A stretch of DNA of 64,000 nucleotides, taken from contig NZ_LR027857.1 of NCBI RefSeq assembly GCF_900607235.1, forward strand, positions 1-64,000, written 5' to 3'. The notes beneath the pieces were generated by a model. The model was not told the DNA's origin, did not search any database, and was given only the letters and a program-made list of their open reading frames with translations. Positions 41,531 through 59,600 of the stretch are shown piece by piece. The position numbers and the translations under genes are program-made. The first letter of the stretch is position 1. Each line of letters starts with the position of its first letter. The DNA comes from Olivibacter jilunii. Its GTDB lineage: Bacteria > Bacteroidota > Bacteroidia > Sphingobacteriales > Sphingobacteriaceae.

Positions 41531-42604
41531 CTAAAACCTGTCCAAAATTTCCTGAGGTGTGCGTTCTGATATTCCAAAAAATATCTTTTGACCGGATTGA
41601 TAAGGTTGGCGCAGTTCAAAATTTTCAAAGGCTGCCCCTCCTGGGATTTTCATGTAATGGGTAGAATCCCGACTTCCACCGCTCCAATAACGATACCTGC
41701 CGTTCACTCTTACCATTAAACGATTATCACTTCCATTGTTTTGTTCGCTACGCCAGTATTGCGTAAACTTCAGGGGTGGGCGATACCTCCAGCCCAATTT
41801 GCTTTTCGCCAAGGAATCAACCGGCCAAGCTTTTAAGGCTTGTATATCTTCATTACCGGTTGCAAATGCGAAATAACTTCCGTCAAGACTACGGAGCATG
41901 CTGCTCGCTGGATAGCTTTCCTTTTCGATAAAATCTATTCCATTATAGCCTTTATAGAGCACTCGGGAATCAATCGCGCCTTCTTTTAAATGTAGCGATC
42001 GTAGTCGTGCATAGTTTCCCATCGTCGCTGTGATATTGCAATAATCCATTTGCTTACTATCCTCCCGATTGAATAACTGAATAGCCAATTCATCCGGTCG
42101 ATCACTTCGAATCGAGAGTTTTAAGTAGGGATGCGCCCCCGAGTGATATTTTTCCAGGAATACATAAATAGACAATTCCTCCAACTCGGGACGAGCGTCA
42201 TCAGGGTGACTAATAACACCACGGCAATTAGCCGTTGGATAAAATGCAGTGGGATTGGGGTGATCGCTTGCCCACATTATCTTCCCCCAGCGGTTATCAA
42301 CTGATGAAGGCGATATTTCGCTAAATTCGATCTTTCCATCTACAAGTGGTTCAATAGCTAAAAAATTAAGTAGATAAATTTTTCCACTTCGCTCAACGCC
42401 AACACGTATCAATCCCCTAGGACCACCACCGTAAATCGCATGCGCATCTTCGAGACCGTAGGGCCATAAACTGAAAACAATGCCTTGCCGGATTCCCCAT
42501 TTCGCCACATCGTGTACATCATTCGGTCTAATCCAACGATCTTGCGCATTTAATGAAATATGCAGCAAACAGAAAAACGTAAGGAAAAAAATAAAAGACT
42601 TCAT
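41531..42604 (-). CDS. secreted protein of unknown function
   Basis: 357 aa from the ATG at 42602-42604, which begins the signal peptide MKSFIFFLTFFCLLHISLNA and lies 4 nt after the FKBP stop codon. The mature part is soluble, with no family I recognise. Aromatic- and glycine-rich segments such as WRYRPPLKFTQYWRSEQ and NGRYRYWSGGSRDS suggest a beta-rich, carbohydrate-related protein. It closes the operon running from the AraB-type kinase through GH116, the COG0523 GTPase and the FKBP, so a role with GH116 in the periplasm is plausible but unproven. Confidence 0.75.
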   Translation of the reverse strand: MKSFIFFLTFFCLLHISLNAQDRWIRPNDVHDVAKWGIRQGIVFSLWPYGLEDAHAIYGGGPRGLIRVGVERSGKIYLLNFLAIEPLVDGKIEFSEISPSSVDNRWGKIMWASDHPNPTAFYPTANCRGVISHPDDARPELEELSIYVFLEKYHSGAHPYLKLSIRSDRPDELAIQLFNREDSKQMDYCNITATMGNYARLRSLHLKEGAIDSRVLYKGYNGIDFIEKESYPASSMLRSLDGSYFAFATGNEDIQALKAWPVDSLAKSKLGWRYRPPLKFTQYWRSEQNNGSDNRLMVRVNGRYRYWSGGSRDSTHYMKIPGGAAFENFELRQPYQSGQKIFFGISERTPQEILDRF

Positions 42605-42608
42605 TATT

Positions 42609-42944
42609 TTATGATTTATAGCAAACACAGTCTTCGTCGCAGTTGACTAGTTTCTCATGCAGGCCGCTTGCAATTTCCGCCTTATTAGCTAAGCGGACCG
42701 TATCGATAATCACTTCCAGCTCAAAACTATCATCAAGACCTTTCCCTACATTCTTTTCGAGCGTAATTTTCTTTTGATCTCCTTTTTGTAAACCCGCCAG
42801 CTCCTGCTCTAATTGTGGATCAATCTTTCCATCTCCATAGAGATATTCAATGGCCGGGCCATTCATCAAATCTTCAAGAATTTCACCCTTGCTATTTGAC
42901 ATTCTATAGCGCAAGCTCACCACCGTATTTCTTTTTATCTTCAT
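42609..42944 (-). CDS. small FKBP-type (SlyD-like) peptidyl-prolyl isomerase with Cys tail
   Basis: 111 aa, no signal peptide, so cytoplasmic. The start VVSLRYRMSNSKGEILED and the GDGKIDPQLEQELAGLQKGD stretch are FKBP-like, but the domain is short and the insert-in-flap region of SlyD appears reduced. The C terminus CDEDCVCYKS contains three cysteines and acidic residues, reminiscent of SlyD metal-binding tails. It lies 27 nt after the COG0523 GTPase gene. A metallochaperone or folding role for a neighbouring enzyme is inference. Confidence 0.7.
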   Translation of the reverse strand: MKIKRNTVVSLRYRMSNSKGEILEDLMNGPAIEYLYGDGKIDPQLEQELAGLQKGDQKKITLEKNVGKGLDDSFELEVIIDTVRLANKAEIASGLHEKLVNCDEDCVCYKS

Positions 42945-42971
42945 AAGGATTTCTTACTAATCAATAATGAT

Positions 42972-44045
42972 CTAGGTAATGATTCGATGTGTAGGTCTGG
43001 GATATCCAGGAACAAATATACTTGTCTTCAGCAAGGCTATTTTTACACCGTTCTGTTTTGCAACCCGCTGTAAAGCTTTATCGACAATACCTTGTAACGA
43101 TTTAGGCCGACATTGGACGCGTGCATTTATAAGCATCCGAAGCTTGTCAAGCTTGCCTGATAGTTGTATACGAAAATCCGCTGTTTCCATGGTAGTAAAA
43201 CTTAATTTCTGACTCTCTTCTCCGCCTTCGATTAAAAATTTCAGGTGTCCTATAGGCAAATTGCGCTCGCGAATCATCCTGTTTAACATGCTAATCAATA
43301 GCTCAGCAGCGTGGCCCGCACGCCCTTCCGAAGAAACCAGCTCCAAGTTGTAATCAAGCCAAGTTAGGGCTGCCTCACCTTTCCCATATATATCATAATC
43401 AATAAAAAGTGATGTTCTTTCCTTAAAATGCTCATATGTTTCCGTTTTCTGCAACCAATTCAGAATAGATTCACGCTGTAAGGAGCTTTGAAAGACCACC
43501 TGCTTATCGGGAAATTCTTTTTTGATCAACGAAATCAAAACAGCTAATTCGGTTGGCTCTAAAAGGTCTACTTTGTTGATGATCAGCAAGTCGGCCTCCT
43601 CCAGTTGACGCTTATAAATGTAATTTACACTATCTTTAAAAATTCGGGAATGTCCCAAAGCTATAGGCAAAAGCTTCGCATCGGCGAAAACAGATAAGGT
43701 TATTTTGATTTCACCATAATATCGACGTAAAGGATTAAGAATCGTCGAAATCAAATCCGTGCAAGAACCAACCGACTCCGCAAAAATCAAATCAACCTGA
43801 TGCTGCTCAAGCAGCTGATTCATATTACGAGTAAACGACTCGAAGTTGCAACAGAAGCAGCTTCCCGTCACTTCCTCAGTGAGGATGCCTTCTCGAGCCA
43901 TAAATTGGGTGTCTACTAATTCCGTTCCCTGATCGTTTGTAATAACACCTACTCTAAATCCTTGCATCTGCAATAATTTGCATGCATGGTTAATAGCCGT
44001 AGTTTTCCCACTGCCCAAAAAACCGCTTAAAAGATTTAAATGCAT
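42972..44045 (-). CDS. COG0523/CobW-family GTPase (metallochaperone-type)
   Basis: 357-aa P-loop GTPase with Walker A GFLGSGKTT (8-16), the family metal-binding CxCC at C63-F64-C65-C66 (GSCFCC) and the guanine-specificity motif NKVD (about 157). COG0523 proteins hand metals such as zinc or cobalt to client enzymes. The C-terminal part is divergent from typical CobW_C. It lies 11 nt after the GH116 gene and just before the Cys-tailed FKBP, an unusual setting inside a PUL; no zinc-starvation gene is nearby. Confidence 0.85.
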   Translation of the reverse strand: MHLNLLSGFLGSGKTTAINHACKLLQMQGFRVGVITNDQGTELVDTQFMAREGILTEEVTGSCFCCNFESFTRNMNQLLEQHQVDLIFAESVGSCTDLISTILNPLRRYYGEIKITLSVFADAKLLPIALGHSRIFKDSVNYIYKRQLEEADLLIINKVDLLEPTELAVLISLIKKEFPDKQVVFQSSLQRESILNWLQKTETYEHFKERTSLFIDYDIYGKGEAALTWLDYNLELVSSEGRAGHAAELLISMLNRMIRERNLPIGHLKFLIEGGEESQKLSFTTMETADFRIQLSGKLDKLRMLINARVQCRPKSLQGIVDKALQRVAKQNGVKIALLKTSIFVPGYPRPTHRIIT

Positions 44046-44056
44046 ATGCCTTTATT

Positions 44057-46690
44057 TTAACCAAGTCTCACTTTTTTACCTGATAGTGAAATTTCTTTCG
44101 CTGGTATTTCACCATAAACAACGTCCAACTTTGCCTGACCATTTTTTAAACTCACCAATCCAAAGCCTTTGTCTGTAGACAAGAAAGAAGAGAAATCACC
44201 GATTTTGGAATCAATATAAAGCACTTTGTCCACTGCATCGTAGCGCACTCCCGTCATTGCCTGTAAACAAGCATAACTAGCCATTGCTCTGGCATACCAA
44301 CTTCCACATTCGTATTCATTAAATGGGTTTCTTATACGTCCATCATACCGCTTTCTGCAAGCGCTGATAATCTCAAGTCCTTTATCAGTTTCACCGATCT
44401 GCATCAAGTGCGAAGCTACTTGATACTCGATACCTGTCCACACCTCATTACTATACACGAAAGGCAGCGAAAGCATGCCTCCTTTAGGCCAAGTACAGAG
44501 CAACAAACCACCTTCATGTCCCATCGCATAAGTCGGTCGCTGTGGGTTGATATGATCTGTTAAATCGTTTTTGAGATTGTATTGATGCACCGCACGTAAA
44601 TGGCTGTTTACCTTTTCTTGGTCTAACGGATTTTCCAATCCGCACATCGCCGCCATCCAAGCACCGATTACACCATCCGAAAGACAGCCTGTACCATATT
44701 GATACTTTGGCCCCTCTTTTTTCAATATTTCGATGGCCTCGGGTGTATACTGTGTATGAAAGGATTGCGCTTTGGTTGGATCCGGGGCCTTCAAACCTGT
44801 CCACTGTATCTTTTGAATAAAATATTCGCCATTATACAGCTGATCTTCCATATAGGCCCTTCCGCGATCATACAAAGTCTCGTAACGTTTCATATTTTTC
44901 CTTTGATAGCGCCCCATTTCGATCAGTGCCTTCAGTGCTCCTAAATAAAAGCTTGTGCACATACCATTTGGGCCCCAAAATTCGATATCATAGGTATTAT
45001 GATGCGGTTCTTCCAAGATCCCTTTGCCGTTGGGATCCCAAGTTTGAATGCAATAATCCAAACTCTTTTGTACCATCGGGTAAAGCTTTTTCATCCACTC
45101 ATCATCACCCGATATTCGCCAATCTCGATAAACTTTCATAATCCCGCCCAATTGGCCATCAGCCGCAGCGTGAAAATCGTGTTTCAACGGACTGATCGGC
45201 AAATTAGCTCGAAAGCCCTGATGCCCTTCTGCATTTTGATTTTCACAAAATTCCGTGAGTCGTAAGCTTCTTTCCAAGGAGGGGAACAGATGAGGCAATG
45301 CTTGCGCATAGTTCCATACATGCGTACAAGACCCGTCACAGCAACCGTTATGCGGAAAGATTCCCTCGTAGGCCCAAAGACGACCGTCGTGCTGTCTTCT
45401 TACGGTCGGCGTTTTCAAAATGCTTAAATTAGCAGCTACTGCCTCCAATACTTCAGGCGGTAAAGTGGAAGCATAAAAGGTATCCCGAAATAAGGCCGTG
45501 TTTTTATAAAGTGTTGTGTAATTGGTTTTCCAATAGTCAACCAGCTCCTCCATATGCTTAAATCTTTGGCTATACCAAGGTTTATAATTTGTAGGAATCG
45601 GCTTATCTTCCCCCATACCTAAGGCGGCCGGTGTAGTGCAACAAGCTTCTTTGCCTGTTTTGTCGTCTGGCATGGCTTGCCCTGCTTTCTCATTTGATTC
45701 GGGCACATACCATGCCATAAGGATTCGGATTTCCTTCTCTTCATTCGCCCCTAATTGAAAAGGAATAAAGAGGGAAGCTCCAGGTGCATCCTTGTCAATA
45801 GGATCTACCGCTTTTACATTGGCATCCTTAATGGTATTCCACACCATGGTTAGGGGATCAAACCAGCCTCCTCTGAACCAGCAATAATCAACAATTACCT
45901 CGTCCCTGGTATCTGCAAAAATGGCAAAGTCGGTCGCTAAATTATTTTTACCCTCTGTTTTAGCCTGCGATAGGAGGAAGCCTTTTTGTATTTTCTTTAT
46001 CGATCCCTCTCCTTCCGGTTGAACTACAAAGTTTCGGCTGTTGAAAGAAAAAACAGCCTCGAGGTTTTCTTGTGAAGTATTAATGAATCGGTACGTTAAA
46101 GCACCAACCGGCAGGCTGGAATTATCGGCATCAGAAGGAACGAAAGGACTCCACGCCTCCAGTCGTACTTGTAACGGAAACTTATCATCACGTAGCTGGA
46201 TCTCCGCAAAAGGAAACCGTGCTAAAAATTCAGCTTGCTCGAAGTGAGGTAGGCCATAAGTTGTACCACCACTACCGCCACCATAATCCTTATAACCGAA
46301 AAGCTTCCAGTCCGGCACCGGTCCTTCCAACACTTTCGCACTGTTTGCTCGACCTTTAATGGCTACAGCGCCAAAAATGGTAGGTTCATGAAACAGCTCC
46401 GGTTTATGACGGATGGAGACGTGCGAAATTGCGCCGGAGCCTTCCAAACAGAACATACCGGCACCGATTCCACCAATGGGAAAAGCAATCTTATCGAGGT
46501 GATGACCAACATATGGTCCGTTGAATACTCGGTCATGCTCCTCCTTCGTGAATTGTCTACAGCTTTGCTGTTCCTTTTCTATAGGGCTTTCATTGGTAGA
46601 GGCAAAGAGCGTTGAAGGTGCCGCACCTACGGCAACTCCTCCCAATGCGAGATTACGAAGAAAGTTCCGCCGATCTTTTTTCTGTTGCAT
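44057..46690 (-). CDS. TAT-exported GH116-family hydrolase (GBA2-like, DUF608)
   Basis: 877 aa. Twin-arginine signal (DRRNFLRN, residues 6-13, then ALGGVAVGAAPSTLFAS). N-terminal GBA2-type beta domain beginning DKIAFPIGGIGAGMF, then an alpha/alpha barrel. The predicted nucleophile is E442 (WAYEGIF) and the acid/base D568 (HNTYDIEFWG), by comparison with GH116 beta-glucosidases. Just after the nucleophile comes C450-C451-x3-C455-x-H457 (GCCDGSCTH), which could bind a metal. Known GH116 enzymes act on beta-glucosides, beta-xylosides or N-acetylglucosaminides; the substrate here is unknown. In the operon it follows the kinase by 30 nt and precedes the COG0523 GTPase by 11 nt. Confidence 0.85.
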   Translation of the reverse strand: MQQKKDRRNFLRNLALGGVAVGAAPSTLFASTNESPIEKEQQSCRQFTKEEHDRVFNGPYVGHHLDKIAFPIGGIGAGMFCLEGSGAISHVSIRHKPELFHEPTIFGAVAIKGRANSAKVLEGPVPDWKLFGYKDYGGGSGGTTYGLPHFEQAEFLARFPFAEIQLRDDKFPLQVRLEAWSPFVPSDADNSSLPVGALTYRFINTSQENLEAVFSFNSRNFVVQPEGEGSIKKIQKGFLLSQAKTEGKNNLATDFAIFADTRDEVIVDYCWFRGGWFDPLTMVWNTIKDANVKAVDPIDKDAPGASLFIPFQLGANEEKEIRILMAWYVPESNEKAGQAMPDDKTGKEACCTTPAALGMGEDKPIPTNYKPWYSQRFKHMEELVDYWKTNYTTLYKNTALFRDTFYASTLPPEVLEAVAANLSILKTPTVRRQHDGRLWAYEGIFPHNGCCDGSCTHVWNYAQALPHLFPSLERSLRLTEFCENQNAEGHQGFRANLPISPLKHDFHAAADGQLGGIMKVYRDWRISGDDEWMKKLYPMVQKSLDYCIQTWDPNGKGILEEPHHNTYDIEFWGPNGMCTSFYLGALKALIEMGRYQRKNMKRYETLYDRGRAYMEDQLYNGEYFIQKIQWTGLKAPDPTKAQSFHTQYTPEAIEILKKEGPKYQYGTGCLSDGVIGAWMAAMCGLENPLDQEKVNSHLRAVHQYNLKNDLTDHINPQRPTYAMGHEGGLLLCTWPKGGMLSLPFVYSNEVWTGIEYQVASHLMQIGETDKGLEIISACRKRYDGRIRNPFNEYECGSWYARAMASYACLQAMTGVRYDAVDKVLYIDSKIGDFSSFLSTDKGFGLVSLKNGQAKLDVVYGEIPAKEISLSGKKVRLG

Positions 46691-46720: not shown

Positions 46721-48382
46721 TTAAGCCTTTTCTATACAAACGCCTAACTGATTATATCGCTGATAACGCTTTTCGTACAATTCGGTATATGTTATATTCG
46801 GATGGTAGACACGATCAAATCCTGGCCCCATCGCTTCCATCGCTTTTTCCACAGAAGGATAAATATCCGCTACGGTCGCCGCGAACATAGCAGCGCCAAG
46901 TGCACAGGTTTGCTCCGATCGATGCACTTTAAGTGGCATTCCTAGAATATCAGCTAACATTTGCATAATGAAGGGCGATTTTTGAGCGATCCCCCCTACA
47001 CCAATTAGCCCCTTTACCGGAATGCCTTCTTCTTGAAATCGTTCTACTATCTTACGTGCACCAAAACAGGTTGCTTCAACCAATGAACGATATATACTAG
47101 GGGCGCTGCTTCCTAAAGTTAAGCCACTAACAAGACCTTTCAATTGCTGATTTGCGTCCGGTGTCCTTCGCCCATTTAACCAGTCAACCGCCAATTCGCT
47201 CGATTCGTCGAAAGTTAGTTTAGCAGCTTCATTTGCAAGTCCGTCCAATAATTGGTCCTGTAAACGAGCATACAGCTGGCGCGTTAAGATTGGGTCTGCA
47301 GAATTGGAGTTGGACAAATGTTGTACAGGCCATAAAAGCAGTTGTTTAAACCAAGCATATACATCCCCAAAAGCAGATTGTCCGGCCTCCAAGCCAATCA
47401 TCCCCGGGATGATCGAGCCGTTTACCTGTCCGCAGATTCCTCTTACAACCCGATGTCCCAATTCATGGGGCGGCACGATTAACATATCACAAGTAGAAGT
47501 TCCCATCACCTTACTTAGAAAATAAGGTTCTATCTGCCCTCCTACAGCCCCCATATGCGCATCCATGGCCCCAATACCGATTAAAACCTGTGTGGATAAA
47601 CCCAGACGATCAGCCCATTCCTCACTTAGGCTTCCGGCCAGTTGGTCAGCAGTATAAACCCTTTTGGGATAAGTTTTTACCACCTTCATCAAACGAGGAT
47701 CAAGTGTCGCAAAAAAATCATCAGAAGGTAATCCATCATACTCACTTGACCAGAGCCCTTTATGTCCCGCTGTGCAGATCCCTCTTTTGATTTGATCAGC
47801 GTGCTTTCCACCTGTTAGTAAAAAAGGCATCCAATCGCAATGTTCAACCCAAGTATAACATGCCTTATACACCGCTTCATCGGACTTCACTACATGGAGT
47901 AGTTTAGCCCAAAACCATTCAGAGGAATATATTCCACCCACATACTTCAAATAATCGATATTAAATTTTTTTGCTAAAGCATTTATAGCAGCAGCCTCCT
48001 CTACCGCGGTATGATCCTTCCAAAGAACAAACATGGCATTGGGATTATCGGCAAAGCCCGGCAAAAGGGCTAGCGGCGTACCGGCAGCGTCCACTGCAAC
48101 AGGTGTCGACCCTGTCGTGTCTACCGAAATGGCCCGAATATTAGCACGCACCACGCTGCCCGCCTGTTTCAGACAAGCCTTAATAGTTTGTTCTAAGCCT
48201 TCTATATAATCTTTGGGATGTTGACGAAATTGATTACGAATAGGATTGCAATACAAACCGTCTCGCCAACGCGGATAGGGGTGTACGGCGGCAGCTATCT
48301 CTTCCCCGGAATGCGCATCAACAATGAGCGCGCGCACGGAATCCGTGCCAAAATCTACACCTATACAGTAATTGGAATTCAT
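46721..48382 (-). CDS. AraB-type ribulokinase (FGGY family)
   Basis: 553 aa, the length of ribulokinases and longer than fuculo- or rhamnulokinases. N-terminal phosphate motif GVDFGTDSVRAL (8-19), the AraB-typical YPRWRDGLYC and FRQHPKDYIEGLE, MFVLWKDHTA, and C-terminal GVGGIAQKSPFIMQMLAD. AraB enzymes phosphorylate L- and D-ribulose at C5. No araA or araD is nearby; FucP and FucI are, so the substrate is more likely D-ribulose made from D-arabinose by FucI, or L-fuculose by relaxed specificity. First gene of the GH116/GTPase/FKBP operon or distal to FucP after a 160-nt repeat-rich gap. Confidence 0.85.
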   Translation of the reverse strand: MNSNYCIGVDFGTDSVRALIVDAHSGEEIAAAVHPYPRWRDGLYCNPIRNQFRQHPKDYIEGLEQTIKACLKQAGSVVRANIRAISVDTTGSTPVAVDAAGTPLALLPGFADNPNAMFVLWKDHTAVEEAAAINALAKKFNIDYLKYVGGIYSSEWFWAKLLHVVKSDEAVYKACYTWVEHCDWMPFLLTGGKHADQIKRGICTAGHKGLWSSEYDGLPSDDFFATLDPRLMKVVKTYPKRVYTADQLAGSLSEEWADRLGLSTQVLIGIGAMDAHMGAVGGQIEPYFLSKVMGTSTCDMLIVPPHELGHRVVRGICGQVNGSIIPGMIGLEAGQSAFGDVYAWFKQLLLWPVQHLSNSNSADPILTRQLYARLQDQLLDGLANEAAKLTFDESSELAVDWLNGRRTPDANQQLKGLVSGLTLGSSAPSIYRSLVEATCFGARKIVERFQEEGIPVKGLIGVGGIAQKSPFIMQMLADILGMPLKVHRSEQTCALGAAMFAATVADIYPSVEKAMEAMGPGFDRVYHPNITYTELYEKRYQRYNQLGVCIEKA

Positions 48383-48542: not shown

Positions 48543-49889
48543 TTAATGATGATGCAAGATAATCTCATTATCATGTTCTATTTTGCCGACCCCCCAGATC
48601 GCGTACCAAGCAATGAACGCAAAACATAGCATCGGAATGAAAAACGCTACAGACATACTTGAATGATCGGCAACTACGCCCATAATAGGTGGACAAAAGG
48701 CTCCTCCTGCTACTGCCATAACAAGAAAAGAGGATGCTTTTTTTGTAAGCGACCCCAAGCCGTGGATTCCTAAAGCAAAAATAGTTGGGAACATGACAGA
48801 CATAAAGAAGTAGCAGCTAAATAAGGCGATAACAGAGCCCCAACCTAATGCTAACTGTACGAAAACCATTAAGGCTGTATTAATAAGCGCATAAATAGCC
48901 AGCAATTTTTTAGGTTTTAGAAATTTCATGAGATACGCCCCGGATATTCTCCCTATCCAGAATAAGCCCATGCCTCCGATTGCAAGAATTACGGAGGCTG
49001 CCTGCTCTGCATTCTTCGGCATAAAGACCTCTCCAAAATAACCTAAGTGTTGCATCATGTTAGCGACCGGGCCTGTTACGTTTGGAATTTCTTCCGTTAC
49101 GTAGTTAATGAAGAAAGAATTAACACCAGTTTGGGCGGCCACATAAAGAAACTGAGCAATTACTGCAGCAATAAAGGCAGGATGTTTTAACAGTCGGCCC
49201 ATTTTCGGGTTCTCTTCAGACTCTTCCTCGCTTTTTTCCTCAATATCGGGTAATTTAATCAACATAAAAATAACAGCGACCACTACAACCACACAGCCGA
49301 TGCCCATATACGGTTTTACCAGCGAATCAAATTTTTCGGCGCCGTCCTGTTGTTCGGCACCGAAAATAAACAAACCACCCATCAAAGGTCCTAAAATCCA
49401 CCCCAGTCCGTTGAACGACTGGGAAATATTGATACGCCGTGCTGCAAACTCCTCCTCTTGCGAGCCTAACACGGTAGAATAGGGATTCGCGGCTGTTTCC
49501 AAACAGGCCAGTCCGCAAGCAATTACAAATAAGGCTAGCAAAAAGGGAATAAAAGCTTCAAATTTTGCTGCCGGATAAAACAAAAACGCTCCTATCCCAA
49601 AAAGGGTTAGTCCCAGAATAATTCCCTTTTGATATCCGTAACGTTTCATAAAAATGCCCGCAGGGATGGCCATTGCCAAGTAACCGATATAAAGGGAAAA
49701 TTGGACAAATCCGGATTGCGCCTTAGAAACCTGTAGCGTATCCTGAAAGTGCTTATCCAACACGTCCAATAAACCATGAGCAAAGCCCCATAGCAAAAAA
49801 AGACTGCAGATAAACATAAAAGGAACGAGGTAGTTTATACCATCCTTGGTTCGGAAAAGCGACCCTGTTGTTTTTTTATTCATAAACAT
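48543..49889 (-). CDS. fucP: L-fucose:proton symporter, FucP family
   Basis: 448-aa major-facilitator transporter with about 12 membrane spans in the inner membrane. FucP hallmarks are PFMFICSLFLLWGFAHGLLDVLDKHF in the first span region and the ACLETAANPYSTVLGSQE motif. It would import L-fucose (FucP proteins also take D-arabinose) from the periplasm. It starts 3 nt after the fucI stop codon, so the two are cotranscribed; M3 (49881-49883) is an alternative start. Confidence 0.92.
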   Translation of the reverse strand: MFMNKKTTGSLFRTKDGINYLVPFMFICSLFLLWGFAHGLLDVLDKHFQDTLQVSKAQSGFVQFSLYIGYLAMAIPAGIFMKRYGYQKGIILGLTLFGIGAFLFYPAAKFEAFIPFLLALFVIACGLACLETAANPYSTVLGSQEEEFAARRINISQSFNGLGWILGPLMGGLFIFGAEQQDGAEKFDSLVKPYMGIGCVVVVVAVIFMLIKLPDIEEKSEEESEENPKMGRLLKHPAFIAAVIAQFLYVAAQTGVNSFFINYVTEEIPNVTGPVANMMQHLGYFGEVFMPKNAEQAASVILAIGGMGLFWIGRISGAYLMKFLKPKKLLAIYALINTALMVFVQLALGWGSVIALFSCYFFMSVMFPTIFALGIHGLGSLTKKASSFLVMAVAGGAFCPPIMGVVADHSSMSVAFFIPMLCFAFIAWYAIWGVGKIEHDNEIILHHH

Positions 49890-49892
49890 GGC

Positions 49893-51656
49893 TTATTTAT
49901 ATAGTGGTCCATAACTGGCACAGGCGCGGTAATCAGCACCTTCATGGTCCATACCAAAGGCATTCCAGGCGCTGGGTCTAAAAATGCGAGGGGATTCAAC
50001 GTTATGCATACAAACAGGGATCCGAAGCATGGATGCCAGCGTCAATAGATCGGCACCGATATGTCCATGACTAATAGCGCCGTGGTTGGAGCCCCAAGCA
50101 GCCATTACACTATAAACGTCACGAAACGCGCCTTCTCCTGTGGTTTTCGGTACAAACCAAGTAGTTGGCCATGTGCGATCCGTTCGTTCATCCAGTAACC
50201 TATTCACATTTTCCGGAAGCTCGACAGTCCACCCTTCGGCCAGTTGCAATACCGGTCCTACACCTTTCACCAGATTTAAACGACACATCGTAACCGGCAT
50301 ACCGCCCTCTGTCAAAAATTTGGACGAATAGCCGCCTCCTCTAAAATAATCGAGATTTGCCGGATGCCAAGTGGTCGCTGCTAAGCAAGCTTCCACTTCT
50401 TCATCGCTAATTTCCCAATGTGGTTTCATCACAGGCTCTCCTTCGTATTTCTGTTTACCGGTGCCATCCAGCGTAGCGGCTCCGGAGTTAATTAAATGGA
50501 TAAAGCCATGTTGAGCAACACCTGTAGGCCGCCAACCCGAAACACGCTCAACCGCATCCGGGCTCCAAAAGGTTCGGACATCGGCAAAAATCTGCGCTTT
50601 ATTCGTCAATAAGTAATTAAACAGCATGGACACCCCGTTCAACGAATCGTTTTCGGTAGCTACTATAAAGGGGGCACGTTTGCCATTCCAATCGAAGGAA
50701 GAATTCAGCAATGCTTCTGAAAAATCGCCGTTCGGCAGGAAATCGGTCCATTGGCGTTGCCCTTGGAAGCCCGATACCAAGGCATGATGCCCGTGTGCTT
50801 CTTCAGCATAGCCCATATCCTTTAACTTTTTGTTCCCGATCATGAGGTCGCGGATAATAAGGGTCATTTTCACTACAAATTCCCAATCGTTATCTTTTTC
50901 GGCGCGCGATTTTACTTTATGAGATTGATTAAAATCCTCACCTTCTTTACAGTATTTTTTTGTCCAAGCTAGCGCCCGTTCATATTCATCCTGATCAAAC
51001 AAATTCAGTTGAATTCTGCGTAGCACTTCTGACGAATCAACGTATTCATTACGCATGCCTAAATAATTCTGAAAAAAGTCAGCATCAACGATTGATCCCA
51101 CTATGCCCATAGAAACCGAACCAATGGCTAAATACGATTTTCCGCGCATGATGGCTACTGCTAAACCCGCGCGTGCAAAGCTCAACAGTTTTTCTTTTAC
51201 ATCATCCGGAATAAAGCGATCTCCCATATCTTGTACATCCTCGCCATAGATACCAAAAGCTGGAAGTCCCTTTTGGTTGTGGGCCGCAAGGGTAGCTGCC
51301 AAATACACCGCACCAGGGCGTTCTGTCCCATTGAAACCCCAAATTGCTTTCGGCAACAAGGGATTCATATCCATTGTTTCTGAACCATAACACCAGCAAG
51401 GTGTTACAGACAAAGAAACACCGACATTTTCGGCTTCGAACTTTTGTGCACAATCGGCGGCCTCCCTTACGCCGCCGATACAAGTATCGGCAATCACACA
51501 TTGCACCGGACTTCCGTCAGGGTAACGCAACTCTGACTGAAATAAAGCAGCCACATCCTGCGCCATATTCATAGTCGTTTCTTCCAATGATTCGCGGATA
51601 CCTCCTAAGCGGCCGTCGATAATGGGCCTAATTCCTATTTTGGGATAGTTGTTCAT
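49893..51656 (-). CDS. fucI: L-fucose (D-arabinose) isomerase
   Basis: FucI, 587 aa (E. coli enzyme 591). Manganese ligands line up with the E. coli enzyme: E335 (ATENDSLNG), D359 (IFADVRTFW) and a His in [12 protein letters not shown] (about 526). It converts L-fucose to L-fuculose and equally D-arabinose to D-ribulose, being historically also a D-arabinose isomerase. It is followed by fucP and an AraB-type kinase. No fuculose-1-phosphate aldolase is present in the window, which favours the D-arabinose reaction or an aldolase elsewhere. Confidence 0.95.
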
Positions 51657-51671
51657 TTATTAATCGTGTTA

Positions 51672-51699
51672 AATTCAAAAGTCAAAAGTCAAAATTCAA
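51672..51699. repeat. heptamer array, 4 x AATTCAA/AAGTCAA
   Basis: AATTCAA, AAGTCAA, AAGTCAA and AATTCAA at a 7-bp period, 15 nt upstream of fucI. The rest of the 183-nt gap (51700-51800) contains further loose 7-nt repeats of the TGCCACT/ACTCATG kind but no recognisable promoter. Confidence 0.65.
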
Positions 51700-51800
51700 A
51701 ACCCTGTCAGTACGTGCTACTGCCACTCTTATAATCCAGTTGCCACTGCCACAACTCACTCATGACTCCTCATTCCAATCTACCGGCAGACAGGCATCCA

Positions 51801-51840
51801 CTACTTAACTATTTTCCTACTCAACCATTTTACGATTTCC
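51801..51840. repeat. octamer array, 5 degenerate CTACTTAA-like units
   Basis: CTACTTAA, CTATTTTC, CTACTCAA, CCATTTTA and CGATTTCC run at an 8-bp period up to the stop codon of the DUF6786-like gene. The same unit family is seen at 48506-48537. Confidence 0.5.
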
Positions 51841-53087
51841 TACTCAATTTTCGCTTCCTTCAACGATATTCCGAGCACCTTTTGCGCAATGGTGTCTAAG
51901 TCCTCTTCCTCGCCGGTAAAATGAAAGACATAATGGTGATGTGTCAATTCTTCTTTAGGCTTTAAAAAAGCAGCCGGTGATACGCTTTCAATTTCATAAA
52001 AAGGCCCCATCTGACTGCCGTCTGCTAACGGACCATCATTATAAGCATTCATTGCATCGCCGGTAAAGGGGTCCTTATCCGGTGTCCACTCTTGGTTGAG
52101 ATAAGTTGCTTTCGGGTGAATATCGAAATAAGTGATGGTTAACACTTTCGTGTCCGCAGCATAGCTGCCTGCAATTGGCTTAACGCGTTGAGGAGGTATG
52201 CCGAGCTTCCCTCGCGATTTTCCATCAGCCTTAAACAACAGCACGCTATCCTTTGCGATCAGTCTGTCCTTTGATATCTCTCCGAAATAATCCGTAGTAG
52301 CAATTTTACCCTTAACTTCCTTCTCAAACGGAATTATAATGACGGTTTTAGGCGTCGGAGTGAACATATCTAAGCTCCATAGACAAGGTGCGCCACTTTG
52401 CTTATCCCAAGCTTTGTCACCTTGATTAAGGATTTTATTAGTTGTTCGAAAACCTACTGTTTTTATGCTTTCACTCCAAGAAAGTCCCAGTACTTGCTCG
52501 ATATCCTTTTTTTCAAGAATTTCGATGTTTCTCGAAAGTTGGATTTGTAGCTCAGTACCGGCATAATTCGTAATCGCAGTCTGCTTATGAAGCGTTACCT
52601 CTCTATCATTGGAAGCGCTGACTTCCCAAGGCTCTGTATCTACTGCCGACGGAGTATGCCAATTAGCAAACTCCATTGTGCTTTTCGGTTCAAAGAACAA
52701 AGAGAACTTCCCGCCTTCCGGCCCTAACCATAACCTATCTTCGCCTCCGTAAGCATTCATGTGCTCATCTTTCTTATCAAAAGCAGCGTAGTTGATCCAG
52801 CCAAAACTTCTACCCCTTTCTCCATCTGCCGTACTGGTAAATACCTTTGCTTGATATTTGGGCGAGACTACCACCTGCGCATCTCCGTGCACATCTTTAA
52901 GCACAATAACACTATCCCGTTTAGATAAAAAGGCAATATCATAACCGAACGAGCCGGGTTTATAGGTGGTCATTTCTTTAGAGGCTATCGTTGCTTGTTT
53001 ATCTGATTTTTTTGACGATTGACTGCAAGCAACACTAAAAAGAGCCAGTATGCTTGAGACAATAATACGCTGCTTCATTCTTTTCAT
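51840..53087 (-). CDS. periplasmic lipoprotein of unknown function (DUF6786-like)
   Basis: 415 aa from the ATG at 53085-53087, just after the GH172 stop codon; it begins the lipoprotein signal MKRMKQRIIVSSILALFSVAC. A longer frame upstream overlaps GH172 by 77 nt and is unlikely. The mature part is beta-rich (GRSFGWINYAAFDKKDEHMN, HHHYVFHFTGEEEDLD). From memory it resembles the uncharacterised DUF6786 family, with modest certainty; no catalytic motif is obvious. Tight linkage to GH172 and the position before fucI suggest a role in handling the released sugar. Confidence 0.7.
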   Translation of the reverse strand: MKRMKQRIIVSSILALFSVACSQSSKKSDKQATIASKEMTTYKPGSFGYDIAFLSKRDSVIVLKDVHGDAQVVVSPKYQAKVFTSTADGERGRSFGWINYAAFDKKDEHMNAYGGEDRLWLGPEGGKFSLFFEPKSTMEFANWHTPSAVDTEPWEVSASNDREVTLHKQTAITNYAGTELQIQLSRNIEILEKKDIEQVLGLSWSESIKTVGFRTTNKILNQGDKAWDKQSGAPCLWSLDMFTPTPKTVIIIPFEKEVKGKIATTDYFGEISKDRLIAKDSVLLFKADGKSRGKLGIPPQRVKPIAGSYAADTKVLTITYFDIHPKATYLNQEWTPDKDPFTGDAMNAYNDGPLADGSQMGPFYEIESVSPAAFLKPKEELTHHHYVFHFTGEEEDLDTIAQKVLGISLKEAKIE

Positions 53088-53088
53088 C

Positions 53089-54279
53089 TTAGTTAACTTC
53101 CAAATCGTTTTTCGCCGGTAATTTCGGAAAACGAGCATGGGGCTCGCGTTGATACCAGAAAGCAACGGTAATAATATCCGATTTTTGCGGTAAATATCGT
53201 CCCTCGGAACGCCATCCTAAGTCTTGAATCGTCACCTTCAGATCACTATCGAAGCGGATTGGGTCCATAATGTGCCAGCGATACATGCCAAAGCGTTGTT
53301 GCGCTTGATAGACACCGTCTGGACGGATCACCTGATGCAAACCGGCGAAGGGCGTGCAGTATTCCTGATATTGATGTGTTTTCTTATTTTCAAAATTGTA
53401 AGAACCGCAGAAGTAATCCTCGGTACCCGTACCTACAATAGTAGCGAAGTCTTTATCGCCATCCATAAAGAACTTAATCTCGCCTTCACCCCACCAGCCG
53501 TTATTGTTTACGCCTACGCCCATGTAGGTACCTACATAATGACCTTTTCCTTTGACGCCATCTAAAATGGTGTGAAGCGAAGTTGAATTTGGATTTGAAC
53601 GGCGGTATTGTGCATGTAAATAAGCCTCCTCTTCCCCTACATCTGTTAACGTATAATCTACCTGATAATACAGGTTCATGGGTTCGCTGTTAATATTTTC
53701 AACCGTAATTCTACATTTTTTTCGGAACGGCATCTTCCAATAACAATTAAAGGCACTACCCGGATTCACCGTGACTGCCATAGAGCTCAACGGAGCGAAT
53801 TCGTTCCAAGCCATTCCGAAAAAAGCACCAACCGGAGCTTCAATAGAAGGCTCCGTTTCATCATCCCAATAGAAACGGATAATAGAGTAACTCCAATTGC
53901 CTGTAGGTGTCATCCAGATATGCTGCACCGCCCCTGGGCCTTCCATTTCAGCAATCGTGAAGGTCTCGCCTCCATTGATAGTAATATAAGGATTCACTTT
54001 CCAACCAAGACCTAAGTCACGTGCCTGAGAGGCGGAATTCGCTACATTTCGCTGACCTGCCTGCTTAACCGGATCTGCCATACCGCCCTTTCCTTTAGCA
54101 CCGGAAAAATTTTCGGGACTAATTGAACGGGTTTTGGCATCCGATAACTTGGACAGCGTGCCCATGTTCATGTCGAGACCATTGAATGCGCCCTGTTGCT
54201 GTGCGTACGTAAATGAATAAATGAAAAGACCGATTAGCGCTGCCAGAAATTTTTTCATCATATTTTTCTTAAGGTTCAT
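53089..54279 (-). CDS. GH172-family (DUF2961) glycoside hydrolase
   Basis: 396 aa with signal peptide (MKKFLAALIGLFIYSFTYA, starting at M8). DUF2961 hallmarks are ITINGGETFTIAEMEGPGAVQHIWMTPTG, the N-terminal jelly roll, and GTGTEDYF (283-290) with a conserved Glu, E287, expected in the active site. Characterised GH172 members are difructose-dianhydride-forming alpha-D-fructofuranosidases and exo-alpha-D-arabinofuranosidases. Given FucI and a ribulokinase just downstream, D-arabinofuranose is the attractive product. It is preceded by a LacI-type operator at 54346, so this starts a transcription unit. Confidence 0.85.
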   Translation of the reverse strand: MNLKKNMMKKFLAALIGLFIYSFTYAQQQGAFNGLDMNMGTLSKLSDAKTRSISPENFSGAKGKGGMADPVKQAGQRNVANSASQARDLGLGWKVNPYITINGGETFTIAEMEGPGAVQHIWMTPTGNWSYSIIRFYWDDETEPSIEAPVGAFFGMAWNEFAPLSSMAVTVNPGSAFNCYWKMPFRKKCRITVENINSEPMNLYYQVDYTLTDVGEEEAYLHAQYRRSNPNSTSLHTILDGVKGKGHYVGTYMGVGVNNNGWWGEGEIKFFMDGDKDFATIVGTGTEDYFCGSYNFENKKTHQYQEYCTPFAGLHQVIRPDGVYQAQQRFGMYRWHIMDPIRFDSDLKVTIQDLGWRSEGRYLPQKSDIITVAFWYQREPHARFPKLPAKNDLEVN

Positions 54280-54345
54280 AAAAGCATTAGTTTAATAATT
54301 GGAAACCGATTGCCGGTTATCTTCATTTTGGTTTTACAATAGTAA

Positions 54346-54361
54346 GCTTAATCGTTTAAAC
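54346..54361. promoter_or_regulatory. LacI-type operator before the GH172 gene
   Basis: GCTTAATCGTTTAAAC, palindromic except at two base pairs. Three nt farther upstream (54365-54372) the coding strand reads TTTATTTG, close to a -7 TAnnTTTG box, so the site would cover the transcription start. The same geometry is seen at 60070-60096. Confidence 0.6.
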
Positions 54362-54409
54362 AAACAAATAAAAGCCATTTATTTTTTATCATTTCTTCAA
54401 CAATCCGTC

Positions 54410-54838
54410 TCACTGACCTTCGGCAATAACCGCCGTTTGGCCTAAAGAATAGATATTACTTGAATAGTTTACATCTTTTACTTTTGTCGAACCGTTTAGC
54501 TTAATGGTTATATGGTAAGTTTTAGCAATATCGGGAATTTCATAAATGAATTCTGAAGGTGCGTTTGACAATGTCGTATTGAAAACAGGAAGCGTTTTAG
54601 TCACGTTAACGATTTCCTTAACTTCAACAAAAACGTTGACCGGTAGTTCTATCTCGTTTGGAATATTGTCTGGAATATTCCATGTTAAGCGAACATGCTT
54701 ATCATCTACTCGCTGCATAGTTAATCCCTCAACGGCAGGTAAACTTACTCCATCTTTTCTTTCCAGCATATCGCGATCGTTACAACCGGTAAAAAAGAGC
54801 GCGGACAGCGAGAATATATATATAAGTACTATTTTCAT
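54410..54838 (-). CDS. small Fn3-like surface lipoprotein, PUL 3
   Basis: 142 aa with lipobox LFFTGC (about 14-19). A single fibronectin-III-like beta sandwich: VEGLTMQRVDDKHVRLTWNIP at the start and FIYEIPDIAKTYHITIKL near the end. It sits in the SusE position, 11 nt after susD, and is probably an accessory glycan-binding or spacer protein on the outer membrane. No family-level assignment beyond the fold. Confidence 0.7.
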   Translation of the reverse strand: MKIVLIYIFSLSALFFTGCNDRDMLERKDGVSLPAVEGLTMQRVDDKHVRLTWNIPDNIPNEIELPVNVFVEVKEIVNVTKTLPVFNTTLSNAPSEFIYEIPDIAKTYHITIKLNGSTKVKDVNYSSNIYSLGQTAVIAEGQ

Positions 54839-54849
54839 AATATGATAGT

Positions 54850-56601
54850 TTAATAGCCGGGATTTTGTTTATAACTACCTTTAGACCAATTCATCTGCGC
54901 TTGGGGGATCGGCAAAAATTCATCTCTACCTGCGGTAAAGCGCCCTTGATTATACCAATCAAATCGCGTTTTCTCTTTATTAATAAAAGCATTCATAACA
55001 GGTTCTAACTGTCCCCATCGCATCAAATCAAAAAAGCGTCGCCCCTCCATGGAAAATTCCAATCTGTTTTCCCACATCAAAGCCTGCCAAGCGAACTCTT
55101 TTGTCCAGGTCACGTTTACCCCAGGTTTATACGTTTCCACTTTATAATCCATCCACAAAGAACCATCCGGTTTATGCAAGCGCTGTGTACTGTTCGCGGC
55201 TCGTTGGCGTATACGATTAATCAATGGCAATGCTTCATTAAAGCGATCGAGCTGGATAAGTACCTCGGCCTTCCACAGTAAAACTTCGGAGTAGCGGATA
55301 ACTTTTTCATTCATCGAATTCATTACATAAAATGGCCGAAAAATACAGTCGCAATCGGGATGAACCTGTTCTTTCATGGAGTTGAAGTAGCCATATTGGA
55401 AAGGAGCGCGTGACCCTGATTCTTGATACAATAAATTATTATCGTATTTCCAGGGATAGCCTGGTATAGCAGCTGTATGACTTAATCGTGGATCAAATTC
55501 ATGACTTTTAAAAAATTCAACATAGGTATTGCCTTTCATTTCCGTATTGTTGTAGTTCTGGAAATCAGGCAAACCCGTTTCGTCTGTTTTAAAAGCATTG
55601 ATCATTGTATGTGAAACTTTATTGAAGTCGCAGCAGGTAAAGTATGGCGCCCACCAGGGAGCATTGAGCTCATTACCTCGATTGATATGACCATCCGTTG
55701 TGCCGTCATCAATGGAATATTGTATCTCCCAAAGCGCCTCCTTGGTAGCGTTATCGAATTCAATCATAAAATTATCTCCAAAGTCCGCTTGTAAATCATA
55801 AACAGCCCCGTCTACGGCCATAATTGCATCTAAGTGGTCCAATGCTCTCTGCAGCGTTTCCTTGTTAATGTTAATCACTTGATGCCGATCGTTTTGTTCG
55901 TATGCTCTAAAAAGCAAGGCCTTTGCAGCTAGCGCGTGTGCCGCATATTTTGTTGGTCGACCTTTTTCAGCTTGGGTCTCAGGCAAAATAGCTGCCGCAT
56001 CTTCGAAATTTTGAATAATCCAATCCCATAAAGGCAAATCATTCGCCATGCCATCCGGTCGATTCGAAATACCTTCTACCACTACTGCGTCAGAAGGTGT
56101 GTTCTCGTCAATTATGGGCACATATTTCCATCTTAGTTTCATACCAAGGTAGATCCATCCGCGTAGAAATTTCATTTCTGCGATTCGCTGATCCTTATTT
56201 GGAAACGTGGACGCATCTACCGCATTCAGTAAACGCAAAGCAATGTTTGCTCGGCTAATCCCAACATAACCGCGGTACCAAGGACCGTCGTTATTGCCGA
56301 CGTTTGGTGTTACACCGGTAAAGGTTTCCATTTCGTACCACGGTGTTTGATCACTCAAACCACCACCTCCCTTATAAGCGTCATCTGAACGAACAGATTG
56401 AATCCAGGGATTGTGTGTGTCTGCAAATCCCAACGAAGACATGTGTGAATAGGCGGCCACTACAAAACTTTCTATTTGAGCAGGGTCTTCTGCTTGACTT
56501 TGCGATAAAACACCCTTGGTGTCGACCTCTAAAAATTTCTGACACCCCGCTGATAAGATCAGTAAAGTCAGGGTTATATACAATTGAACTGTTTTCATCA
56601 T
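54850..56601 (-). CDS. SusD/RagB-family outer-membrane lipoprotein, PUL 3
   Basis: 583 aa. Lipobox LLILSAGC (about 13-20). SusD features include IESFVVAAYSHMSSLGFADTHN, KFLRGWIYLGMKLRW and the C-terminal LMWENRLEFSMEGRRFFDLMRWG. It lies 7 nt after susC. The ligand is unknown; the operon context points to a fucose- or D-arabinose-containing glycan. Confidence 0.93.
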   Translation of the reverse strand: MMKTVQLYITLTLLILSAGCQKFLEVDTKGVLSQSQAEDPAQIESFVVAAYSHMSSLGFADTHNPWIQSVRSDDAYKGGGGLSDQTPWYEMETFTGVTPNVGNNDGPWYRGYVGISRANIALRLLNAVDASTFPNKDQRIAEMKFLRGWIYLGMKLRWKYVPIIDENTPSDAVVVEGISNRPDGMANDLPLWDWIIQNFEDAAAILPETQAEKGRPTKYAAHALAAKALLFRAYEQNDRHQVININKETLQRALDHLDAIMAVDGAVYDLQADFGDNFMIEFDNATKEALWEIQYSIDDGTTDGHINRGNELNAPWWAPYFTCCDFNKVSHTMINAFKTDETGLPDFQNYNNTEMKGNTYVEFFKSHEFDPRLSHTAAIPGYPWKYDNNLLYQESGSRAPFQYGYFNSMKEQVHPDCDCIFRPFYVMNSMNEKVIRYSEVLLWKAEVLIQLDRFNEALPLINRIRQRAANSTQRLHKPDGSLWMDYKVETYKPGVNVTWTKEFAWQALMWENRLEFSMEGRRFFDLMRWGQLEPVMNAFINKEKTRFDWYNQGRFTAGRDEFLPIPQAQMNWSKGSYKQNPGY

Positions 56602-56608
56602 AATAAGA

Positions 56609-59600
56609 TTAGAATGTCACATTAACTCCTACAAATAATGTTCTTGGCATTGGGTAACCAAAACCCGGATTTTCGGGATCTCCCCCTGTAAACCGGTCAT
56701 CTCCCCAAGTTTTCTTCAGCGTAAACAAGTTTTGACCTGATACGTAAAGTCGAAGTCTGCTTAAGTGCCAAGAATCCATCCACTTTTGAGGGAATGTATA
56801 GCCGATATCTAATGTTCGCAACTTGATATAAGATCCGTTTTCAATAAAGTAGGTTGATAACCTTTTTTCTCCATTTGCATCACGCCTAGATAAAGCAGGG
56901 ATGTCTGAGTCCGGGTTATGAGGTGTCCACGCGTCTAGTATGCGACTGGGATGATTCCGGTCATTCTGAACTCCGATATTCCAGAAATCGCTTAGTTCTT
57001 TCCACGTATTACGAACATCATTCCCAAATACGCCTTGAAGGAAAAAGGTTATATCGAAATTTTTGTAACGCGCCTCGAAATTTAAGCCTGCCATTAAATC
57101 AGGATCGGTAATCGCAATCCATGTACGATCATAAATTTCGTTAATCACGCCGTCACCATCGAGATCCTTATAGCGAATCCTACCGACCCCTTTTCCTTGC
57201 TGTTGTGGCGCATTATCAACTTCTTCCTGGGTTTTGAAAATACCATCGGCTACCAATCCGTATAACGAGTTTAACGGCCGACCAATAATATCATCCGTTA
57301 AGCCATTTCCACCATAAGCAAAGCGAACATTTGCTGGTACATCGTGCACTTCATTTTTATAGGCCGAAAAATTCCCTGTGATCGTGTATGAAAAGTCATT
57401 TCTTGATTCCCCCCAGCTGAGCAAAAATTCGAAACCTTTGTTGGTCATATTGGCTCCATTCACCCACCGGTAACCTCCTTCTCCCAAGGCTGCAATGTAA
57501 GGCGGTTCAAAAAGCATATCCGTGGTCTTTTTGGTAAACCAATCAAAGGACCCCGATAAGCGATTATCAAGAAACGCATAGTCGACCCCTATATTGGTCT
57601 GCGTTGTTGTTTCCCATTTGAGGTCAGGATTCCCCAAACTACTCCTTCTGTAACCAGATGGAATATTACCTGAGGGATTCCCGCCTATTGCATAGGAGGT
57701 GCCATTCACATCCGGAACATAAATATCGGTGAATCTCCCCGTTAAAACAGGTTGTGAGTTACCATTTTTACCCCAGCTGGCGCGGAGTTTCAAATCTGAT
57801 AAAAAATCAGCTTGTTTCAAAAATGCTTCATCTTTTAATCTCCATCCCGCTGAAAAAGCCGGGAAGTTACCATATCGATTATTCTCTCCAAAAACGGAGG
57901 CGCCATCACGTCTAAAAGTGGCCGACAGCAGATATTTGGATTTATAAGCATAGTTGATTTTTCCAAAGAAGGACAAAATACGCCGTTCGTTTCCCCCTCC
58001 CGCGAGGTCCCTTCTTTCTCCCGTAGCAGTAGATAGATAGGCATAAGCTCGGTCTTCCAGCAGAATCCCTTCGCGATATACATTTACACTTTCATTGGTA
58101 AATTTATAGGTTTCAATACCTCCTAAGATATCGAAGCGATTGTTATTCAACTCCAAGTTATAGACTAAGGTATTGGTCCAGGTTTGACCGATATCGTGCC
58201 AGTTGTTTTGTCTAACCCCATTTAAACTGCTGCTTTTGCCCCCTGCCTCTTCCCACTTCCGCTGGATATTTCGATCATACCACATACTGTAATCGACACC
58301 ATATTGTGTTTTAAAGTTCAGGTTATCTAATATTTTCACATTAGCATAGGCAGTTCCCAAAACCTTCATAAAATTTCCAATGTTATCTTTATTAAGCATT
58401 AGGTCACGGATTGGGTTATTAAAGTCATCCATGCCTAACGGCATAGCTACACCACCCCAAGCTCCGTTGTTATCGTACACCGGAATGTTCGGAGGCATAA
58501 CTAAAAATTCGTAAGTTCGGCTGACATCCCGAAAACGCAGATGGGTAAGCGTTAAATTTTCGCCGATCGTCACTCGTCCGTTGAGTAATTGGTATTCGTT
58601 ATTAAAGCGTCCTGCCAAACGTTTAAAATATGAAGTAAGCTGTGTACCTTCGTTGTTATAATAATTCAAAGAAAAGAGGCTAGTCGATTTTTCACCTCCC
58701 CCCGTTATTGTCAACTGGTGATTGGTTTGAATCCCCTCCCTCGTCCCTTCCTTAAACCAATTTGTGTTTGATGAAGGCATTGTTTGAGCCGCATTTAACC
58801 ACGGAATTGGTGTTACACTGTTTAGTACCGGGACACCATTGTTATCATAGTTCCAATCGTAATCATAAATCCGTATCGCAGTAGACGGATCATCCCCATC
58901 ATTAACAGTAGCTTGCCATAGGCCACGCCCATAACCAACGGCATCGAGCATTTTTGGTACACCGGTAATCTTAGATGTTCCGACATAACCTTCATAGGTG
59001 ATCTGTGTACCTCCTTTTTGTCCTTTCCTTGTGTTTACCAGAATAACACCCCCAGCTGCACGCGCACCATAAATAGAAGCGGATGACGCGTCTTTCAAGA
59101 TCTGAATCGATTCAATATCATTAGGATTGATATCCCGAAGATTGATATTTACCGGTTGTCCATCAAGTACGATCAACGCCGGCGCAGAATTGAAGGAAGT
59201 AACTCCGCGAACCTGGATACCTACGTTTTCGGCCGGGTTACCATCGGTTGTGATCCGGACGCCCGGAATTTTACCTTGGAGGGATCGCATCACATTGGCG
59301 CTGGGTGTTTTCGTAAAATCTGCTCTTTTTATCAAGCTGACAGCTCCTGTTAAATCCGCTTTCTTTTGGGTCATGTAACCAGTTGAAACAACCACCTCTT
59401 CGAGTGCTTGCGCATCATCGCTTAAGGTAACCGTATACTCACGAACACTCGTCAACGTTAATTCTAAAACCTCTTTTCCGACATATGTAAATAGCAAATG
59501 CGTTGTGTTAATGGGCACATCCATTTCAAAACGTCCCAAGGAATCGGTTTGCGTGCTGGCGGCGATGCCCTTTACGGACACACTAACACCGGCCAACCGT

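Follow-up and report, generated by a model that had tools for sequence, protein, structure and literature searches.

What could a metallochaperone-type GTPase and a small FKBP have to do with a glycosidase with a predicted export signal? The question is raised by the first 64,000 nucleotides of contig NZ_LR027857.1 of Olivibacter jilunii (assembly GCF_900607235.1; this whole stretch is called the window below), where the minus strand encodes, in this order, FucI, FucP, an FGGY kinase, a glycoside hydrolase of family GH116, a COG0523 GTPase and an FKBP. An earlier note on this DNA had read the last three genes as a possible metal-loading cassette, and inspection of the open reading frames (ORFs) bore out the placement it described: all three start with ATG, with 11 nucleotides between GH116 and GTPase and 27 between GTPase and FKBP. 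We consider it probable that these genes are a dedicated metallocentre-maturation cassette, in which the FKBP and the GTPase would load a thiophilic metal into a site formed by C351, C450 and C482 of the GH116 protein before its export by the twin-arginine (Tat) route. The comparative data argue strongly for a dedicated maturation cassette; metal binding, the proximity of the ligands, the order of transfer and the substrate are what we infer.

Residue C450 and the genes that adjoin it

A search of GTDB genomes with the GTPase as bait yielded 52 loci, and most of those from Bacteroidota have a GH116 gene nearby, often together with an FKBP gene. To counter the bias of this bait, the family, the phylum and the Chitinophagaceae were also searched with GH116 alone, which gave 103 usable GH116 genes whose flanks were read. 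A partner was counted when a GTPase or a Cys-tailed FKBP lay within 1 kb of the GH116 gene, and adjacency was scored on six-frame translations, so that FKBPs under overlapping ORFs (G099, G449, G635) were included. In this sample a partner accompanies 32/52 GH116 proteins with Cys at position 450 and 0/51 of the others (p = 4e-13). The contrast recurs when the sample is split, at 23/38 versus 0/10 for the window's clade and 9/14 versus 0/41 for distant clades. Where a genome has both types of GH116, the partner adjoins the C450 copy. Among 249 Chitinophagaceae genomes, 53 have GH116 and 25 have the GTPase, all 25 with a C450-type GH116; the GTPase was found in 0/16 genomes read as S/A450-only, five further genomes offering unread fragments only. 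Most C450 genomes that lack the GTPase still encode the dedicated FKBP. GTPases of a second COG0523 branch (L122, L190) also adjoin C450 GH116 genes, and where the GTPase is unlinked (L087, L091, L097, L112, L121; a Bacillota and a Planctomycetota among these genomes), a C450 GH116 is encoded elsewhere in the genome.

The earlier note had looked to a CC-x3-C-x-H motif as the feature that should co-occur with the partners; this is true of C450 and not of C451, C455 or H457. What stands of its cassette proposal is that the partners adjoin only C450-type GH116, in several clades and with more than one GTPase branch, while the proposed ligand set and the link to Tat export, both discussed below, did not hold.

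Such a pattern might also arise by phylogenetic hitch-hiking, if a successful lineage had acquired C450 and the partners a single time and passed them on jointly, although functionally unrelated, and the tree (FastTree) lends this some ground, because the C450 state changes only about 5 times, with 3 supported independent pairs. Partner adjacency, however, changes at least 17 times and never on the non-C450 side, and the association extends to clades at 26-33% identity, to GTPases from different branches and to the genomes with unlinked genes, including those of Bacillota and Planctomycetota. Furthermore, in G601 and G764 an S450 protein is nested in the C450 clade, with C351 and C482 kept and both partners absent, which on the tree is a nested, apparently coupled loss of C450 and partners. 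We regard co-inheritance alone as very improbable.

Another possibility is that the GTPase and the FKBP are metal-homeostasis genes of the locus with a different client, such as FucI or the transporter, and that their linkage to GH116 reflects operon co-inheritance. L-fucose isomerase needs Mn, and the genes for FucI, FucP and the kinase are found in many of the same loci. Nevertheless, in the distant-clade loci L088, L229, L233, L235 and L236 the GH116 and GTPase genes are 0-16 nucleotides apart, and FucI was not found in the flanks of L088, which are the flanks that were read. Moreover, the partners follow residue C450, and no S/A450 copy has one within 1 kb, not even where the genome also has a C450 copy. 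A different client is unlikely in our view, and FucI itself was judged so from the distant-clade loci.

Beyond the Bacteroidota, the genomes of L112 (G833, Bacillota) and L121 (G837, Planctomycetota) have C450-type GH116 proteins (L316 and L320) together with the GTPase family; the Bacillota protein seems to have no signal peptide.

The GH116 enzyme and its added cysteines

The GH116 protein has both family domains (PF12215 and PF04685) above cut-off in a Pfam profile search. Its best PDB match by sequence is ExoMA2 (8IC6, E = 1.5e-107), with which its predicted fold (AlphaFold2 model, predicted local distance difference test, pLDDT, of 87) agrees at a template-modelling score of 0.80. The PDB sequence index of 8IC6 equals the author number plus 4, consistent with an SKIK tag, and on this numbering E442, D568, R494 and H457 correspond to Glu431, Asp557, Arg483 and His446 of ExoMA2, all four invariant in our alignment A2; His446 and Arg483 recognise the sugar in ExoMA2 (PMC10509167). 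The window protein thus has in common with ExoMA2 (8IC6/8IC7), a member of GH116 subfamily 4, the fold, the nucleophile, the acid/base and the sugar-binding His and Arg, and is predicted to be an enzyme of the exo-beta-D-arabinofuranosidase type. In ExoMA2, by contrast, position 450 is Ser, and C351, C482 and a signal peptide are missing; the paper describing this enzyme mentions no metal (PMC10509167).

The succession of nucleophile E442, C450, C451, C455 and H457 is as the earlier note described it, with C450 placed 8 residues past E442 and 7 ahead of H457, which binds the substrate. As a set of metal ligands, CC-x3-C-x-H was nevertheless rejected except for C450, because H457 aligns with the sugar-binding His446, while C451 and C455 (Cys440 and Cys444 of ExoMA2) are conserved in nearly all homologues, irrespective of partner genes; C450 itself is Ser439 in ExoMA2. 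The N-terminus, MQQKKDRRNFLRNLALGG, matches a Tat signal, with an RRxFL motif preceding a hydrophobic stretch, and the predicted export agrees with what had been noted before. The motif is present in 48/52 C450 proteins of the GH116-baited sample. It is, however, no hallmark of the cassette, to which the earlier note had tied it, since within the window's clade it is equally common in non-C450 (9/10) and C450 (35/38) proteins.

The alignment offers two more candidate ligands, C351 and C482, which covary with C450 and which the earlier note did not mention. Within the window's clade (clade A), C450 and non-C450 proteins are told apart by four columns when a residue is required in at least 90% of one kind and at most 20% of the other, namely 138, C351, C450 and C482; C450 is the sorting column, and the informative part is that two of the remaining three are Cys. 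C351 is Cys in 47/47 covered C450 proteins of the clade and absent in 8/10 non-C450 proteins, the 351 loop being deleted in most S450 proteins, and C482 is Cys in 49/49 C450 proteins and Asn, His or Gly in 8/10 non-C450 ones; L313 from Imperialibacter, a C450 protein, has Phe at 482. We suggest that C351, C450 and C482 would lie close together in space and form a site. In some clade-A members the 351 loop contains only one Cys, which leaves three as the minimum of added cysteines; an odd number is easier to reconcile with a metal site than with disulphides. Without any metal, the extra cysteines could be redox-active or disulphide-bonded (e.g., C351-C482 or C450-C482), with the FKBP and the GTPase keeping them reduced or correctly paired; four extra cysteines (C350, C351, C450, C482) in most clade-A members would allow two disulphides, and the final place of the enzyme is the periplasm. 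Yet several proteins have C351, C450 and C482 only, export via Tat means that the protein folds while still in the reducing cytoplasm, and characterised COG0523 GTPases handle metals via their CxCC motif (PMC9164220), and we find this explanation improbable.

A thiolate metal site would not be foreign to arabinofuranosidases, and the earlier note's implication that such enzymes are without metals has to be qualified. The beta-L-arabinofuranosidases of GH127/GH146 (HypBA1, BtGH146) have a thiolate Zn site of three Cys and one Glu that includes an adjacent Cys pair (PMC10728902), and resemble the window GH116, a predicted arabinofuranosidase, in the proposed thiolate metal site and in an adjacent Cys pair. 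In those families, however, the Zn-bound Cys is the nucleophile, whereas in GH116 the Glu nucleophile is invariant and the GH127 domain absent, so a Cys nucleophile of the GH127 type on Zn does not apply. The window itself encodes a GH127-type protein with the Zn-Cys ligand pattern ETCG ... RCC (30442-32496, minus strand), a natural contrast to the cassette.

Partner proteins and a proposed maturation route

The GTPase is of the CxCC metallochaperone type, as previously noted: PF02492 (the CobW domain), a Walker A motif (G8-T16), an NKxD motif (N157-K158-x-D160) and C63, C65 and C66 are all conserved, the three cysteines in 100% of GH116-linked GTPases. In a FastTree analysis, to which the reference members of COG0523 subfamily 13 were not added, the cassette GTPases form a clade that is sister, with modest support, to COG0523 proteins linked to UroD and B12-binding genes. 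Subfamily 13, according to Haas et al. 2009, has this same gene setting (UroD-family, B12-binding), that of corrinoid methyltransferases, and its MtaA/MtaB neighbours are Zn-dependent (PMC2770081). No glycosidase link is described in PMC2770081, the text of which has no word beginning 'glycos'. Since the nearest sister group adjoins UroD/corrinoid methyltransferase genes and such MtaA/MtaB are Zn enzymes, Zn is our default guess for the metal, Fe, Co, Ni and Cu(I) being conceivable as well.

Two further observations concern this GTPase. Its top NCBIfam match is a CobW-related selenoprotein model (57 bits, sub-cut-off), hinting that relatives of the family may use selenocysteine. A MIP (aquaporin-type) gene adjoins the GTPase in L080, L081, L083, L084, L129, L108, L114, L117 and L128, in GH116-linked and unlinked loci alike, and in L114 and L117 it is flanked by two GTPases of different branches.

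The small FKBP ends in NCDEDCVCYKS with three Cys, in agreement with the earlier note. It has no Pfam family above cut-off, and its best matches, of SlyD type, are weak (NCBIfam below cut-off; a PDB SlyD at E = 2e-4). The IF domain is absent from this 111-aa protein and present in the 163-aa versions of distant clades. A Cys tail (e.g., CGPEGCC, CDEDCVC) is found in 42/42 dedicated-FKBP matches, which include some genes represented in two loci, while the housekeeping SlyD proteins of the same or sister genomes have His tails or no tail, with the Cys exceptions of G609 and G769, themselves C450/GTPase genomes. The window genome's own housekeeping SlyD (G000:C8:13278) has a His-containing tail without Cys. 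The three-Cys tail of the FKBP is predicted to bind metal.

Taken together, we propose that the three-Cys tail of the FKBP would bind a thiophilic metal, the FKBP also assisting folding, and that the CxCC motif of the GTPase would receive the metal from it. GTP hydrolysis would then drive insertion by the GTPase into the cytoplasmic, pre-export GH116, at C351, C450 and C482, near the loop between E442 and H457. The loaded and folded enzyme would be exported via Tat and, in the periplasm, would remove terminal beta-D-arabinofuranose or a similar furanoside, with FucP, FucI and the ribulokinase serving for uptake and metabolism of the released sugar. The metal might be inserted and still be purely structural, tying the 340-357 loop to the barrel with no catalytic role, as is suggested by the activity of ExoMA2 without the site (PMC10509167) and by the loss of the 351 loop from most S450 proteins; but a private GTPase would be costly for a merely structural site, and C450 is close to both the nucleophile and the substrate-binding His. 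We see this version of metal insertion as conceivable, though on balance doubtful.

Several observations weigh against metal maturation of GH116. The activity of ExoMA2 without the Cys site, from a paper silent on metals, has been mentioned, as have the changes of C450, which are too few to give a tree-corrected pair test any power. G549, G473 and G800 are C450 genomes with neither the GTPase nor a dedicated FKBP, and L114 and L117 have the GTPase, yet only S450 GH116 was found there. The GH127 protein of the window, with its Zn-Cys pattern, has no adjoining GTPase or FKBP and thus no private maturase, so Zn insertion as such needs none. The loop 441-460 of the AlphaFold2 model has a pLDDT of only 65-73. 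Finally, neither C482 nor the 351 loop is present in distant C450 clades, where the ligand set must therefore differ. Their proteins have a diagnostic His and Asp (H428 and D97 in L235 numbering), which may be ligands or clade markers, whereas H431/M490 are a weak lead and perhaps only clade markers. With these points considered, we incline, if only slightly, towards a class of GH116 metalloglycosidases with a thiolate site by the catalytic loop, installed before Tat export by a private COG0523 GTPase and a Cys-tailed FKBP, and with a ligand set that apparently arose anew in at least two GH116 clades (one using C351/C450/C482, another C450 with clade-specific His and Asp).

Fe-type nitrile hydratase has a Cys-thiolate metal site. 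Its COG0523 activator Nha3, and SlyD in nickel delivery to hydrogenase, are the known systems closest in kind (PMC9164220, PMC11198818). Like the cassette GTPase, Nha3/P47K is a COG0523 GTPase with CxCC that serves a single metalloenzyme as its client (PMC9164220, PMC2770081); the cassette differs in its glycosidase client with a Tat signal, in the added FKBP and in a GTPase near the UroD/corrinoid-linked group, Nha3 not being on the GTPase tree. SlyD and HypB, in [NiFe]-hydrogenase maturation, likewise combine an FKBP with a metal-binding tail and a G3E GTPase, and SlyD also binds Tat signal peptides (PMC11198818), but the cassette FKBP lacks the Tat-signal-binding IF domain and has a three-Cys tail, and its GTPase is COG0523, not HypB. 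By analogy, we propose that the cassette works like Nha3/nitrile hydratase and SlyD/HypB/hydrogenase, and we do not assign it to either.

In the open-access literature searched, no description of a GTPase/FKBP/glycosidase pairing and no paper with DUF608 and CobW together were found, and COG0523 and a glycoside hydrolase appear together only in a 2026 Microbacterium genome report, with COG0523 once; maturation of this kind is undescribed for any glycosidase in that literature. To our knowledge, the majority of COG0523 GTPases lack an identified client. The cassette offers one of them a specific, testable client and residues to mutate, with the S450 relatives as built-in non-metal controls. If true, the proposal introduces a maturation step for glycoside hydrolases, which are usually taken to require none. 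It could also account for poor heterologous expression of GH116 enzymes of this type, which is relevant to their use on D-arabinan.

Setting of the cassette in the window

Table 1. Genes and residues of the cassette and its context, with positions in the window
Feature	Position	Strand	Basis or remark
GH116, subfamily-4 type, exo-beta-D-arabinofuranosidase-like, 877 aa, Tat-type signal	44057-46690	-	PF12215/PF04685; proposed client
COG0523/CobW-family GTPase, 357 aa	42972-44045	-	PF02492; proposed metal inserter
SlyD-like FKBP without IF domain, 111 aa	42609-42944	-	SlyD-type best matches; proposed metal carrier
Twin-arginine codons R7-R8 (DRRNFLR), GH116	46667-46672	-	Sequence; nearly invariant in alignment A2
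C351 codon, GH116; proposed metal ligand, loop ~340-357	45638-45640	-	Alignment; C350 adjoins in most members
C450 codon, GH116; residue tracking partner genes	45341-45343	-	Partner-adjacency counts
C482 codon, GH116; proposed metal ligand	45245-45247	-	Alignment
E442 codon, GH116 nucleophile (ExoMA2 Glu431)	45365-45367	-	Alignment to 8IC6, invariant; PMC10509167
D568 codon, GH116 acid/base (ExoMA2 Asp557)	44987-44989	-	Alignment to 8IC6, invariant; PMC10509167
H457 codon, GH116 (ExoMA2 His446); substrate O2 ligand, not metal ligand	45320-45322	-	Alignment; PMC10509167
GTPase metal motif C63-F-C65-C66	43848-43859	-	Conserved in GH116-linked GTPases
FKBP three-Cys tail CDEDCVCYKS (C102, C106, C108)	42612-42641	-	Sequence; homologue tails
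Ribulokinase-type FGGY kinase (context: D-ribulose to D-ribulose-5-P)	46721-48382	-	TIGR01234 above cut-off
FucP-type permease (context: L-fucose/D-arabinose uptake)	48543-49889	-	TIGR00885 above cut-off
L-fucose/D-arabinose isomerase FucI (context)	49893-51656	-	TIGR01089 above cut-off
DUF2961/GH172, candidate exo-alpha-D-arabinofuranosidase (context)	53089-54279	-	PF11175 E = 1e-89; role from PMC10509167

Upstream of the cassette are SusC/SusD-type genes and a GH172 gene, the minus-strand stretch 49893-59791 encoding FucI, a DUF6786 protein, GH172 and the SusD- and SusC-type proteins. Because GH172, GH116, an isomerase and a kinase also make up a published D-arabinan-degrading cluster (PMC10509167), the locus with the cassette is, judging from its gene content, most likely one for utilisation of D-arabinan or a related furanoside in Olivibacter.

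On the other side, the minus-strand gene at 41531-42628 overlaps the FKBP gene, as called, by 20 nucleotides, and encodes a protein that looks secreted and belongs to no Pfam or NCBIfam family. It was not seen in the cassette loci other than those of two Olivibacter relatives (L063, L064), in which it is conserved together with LacI and GH29 genes.

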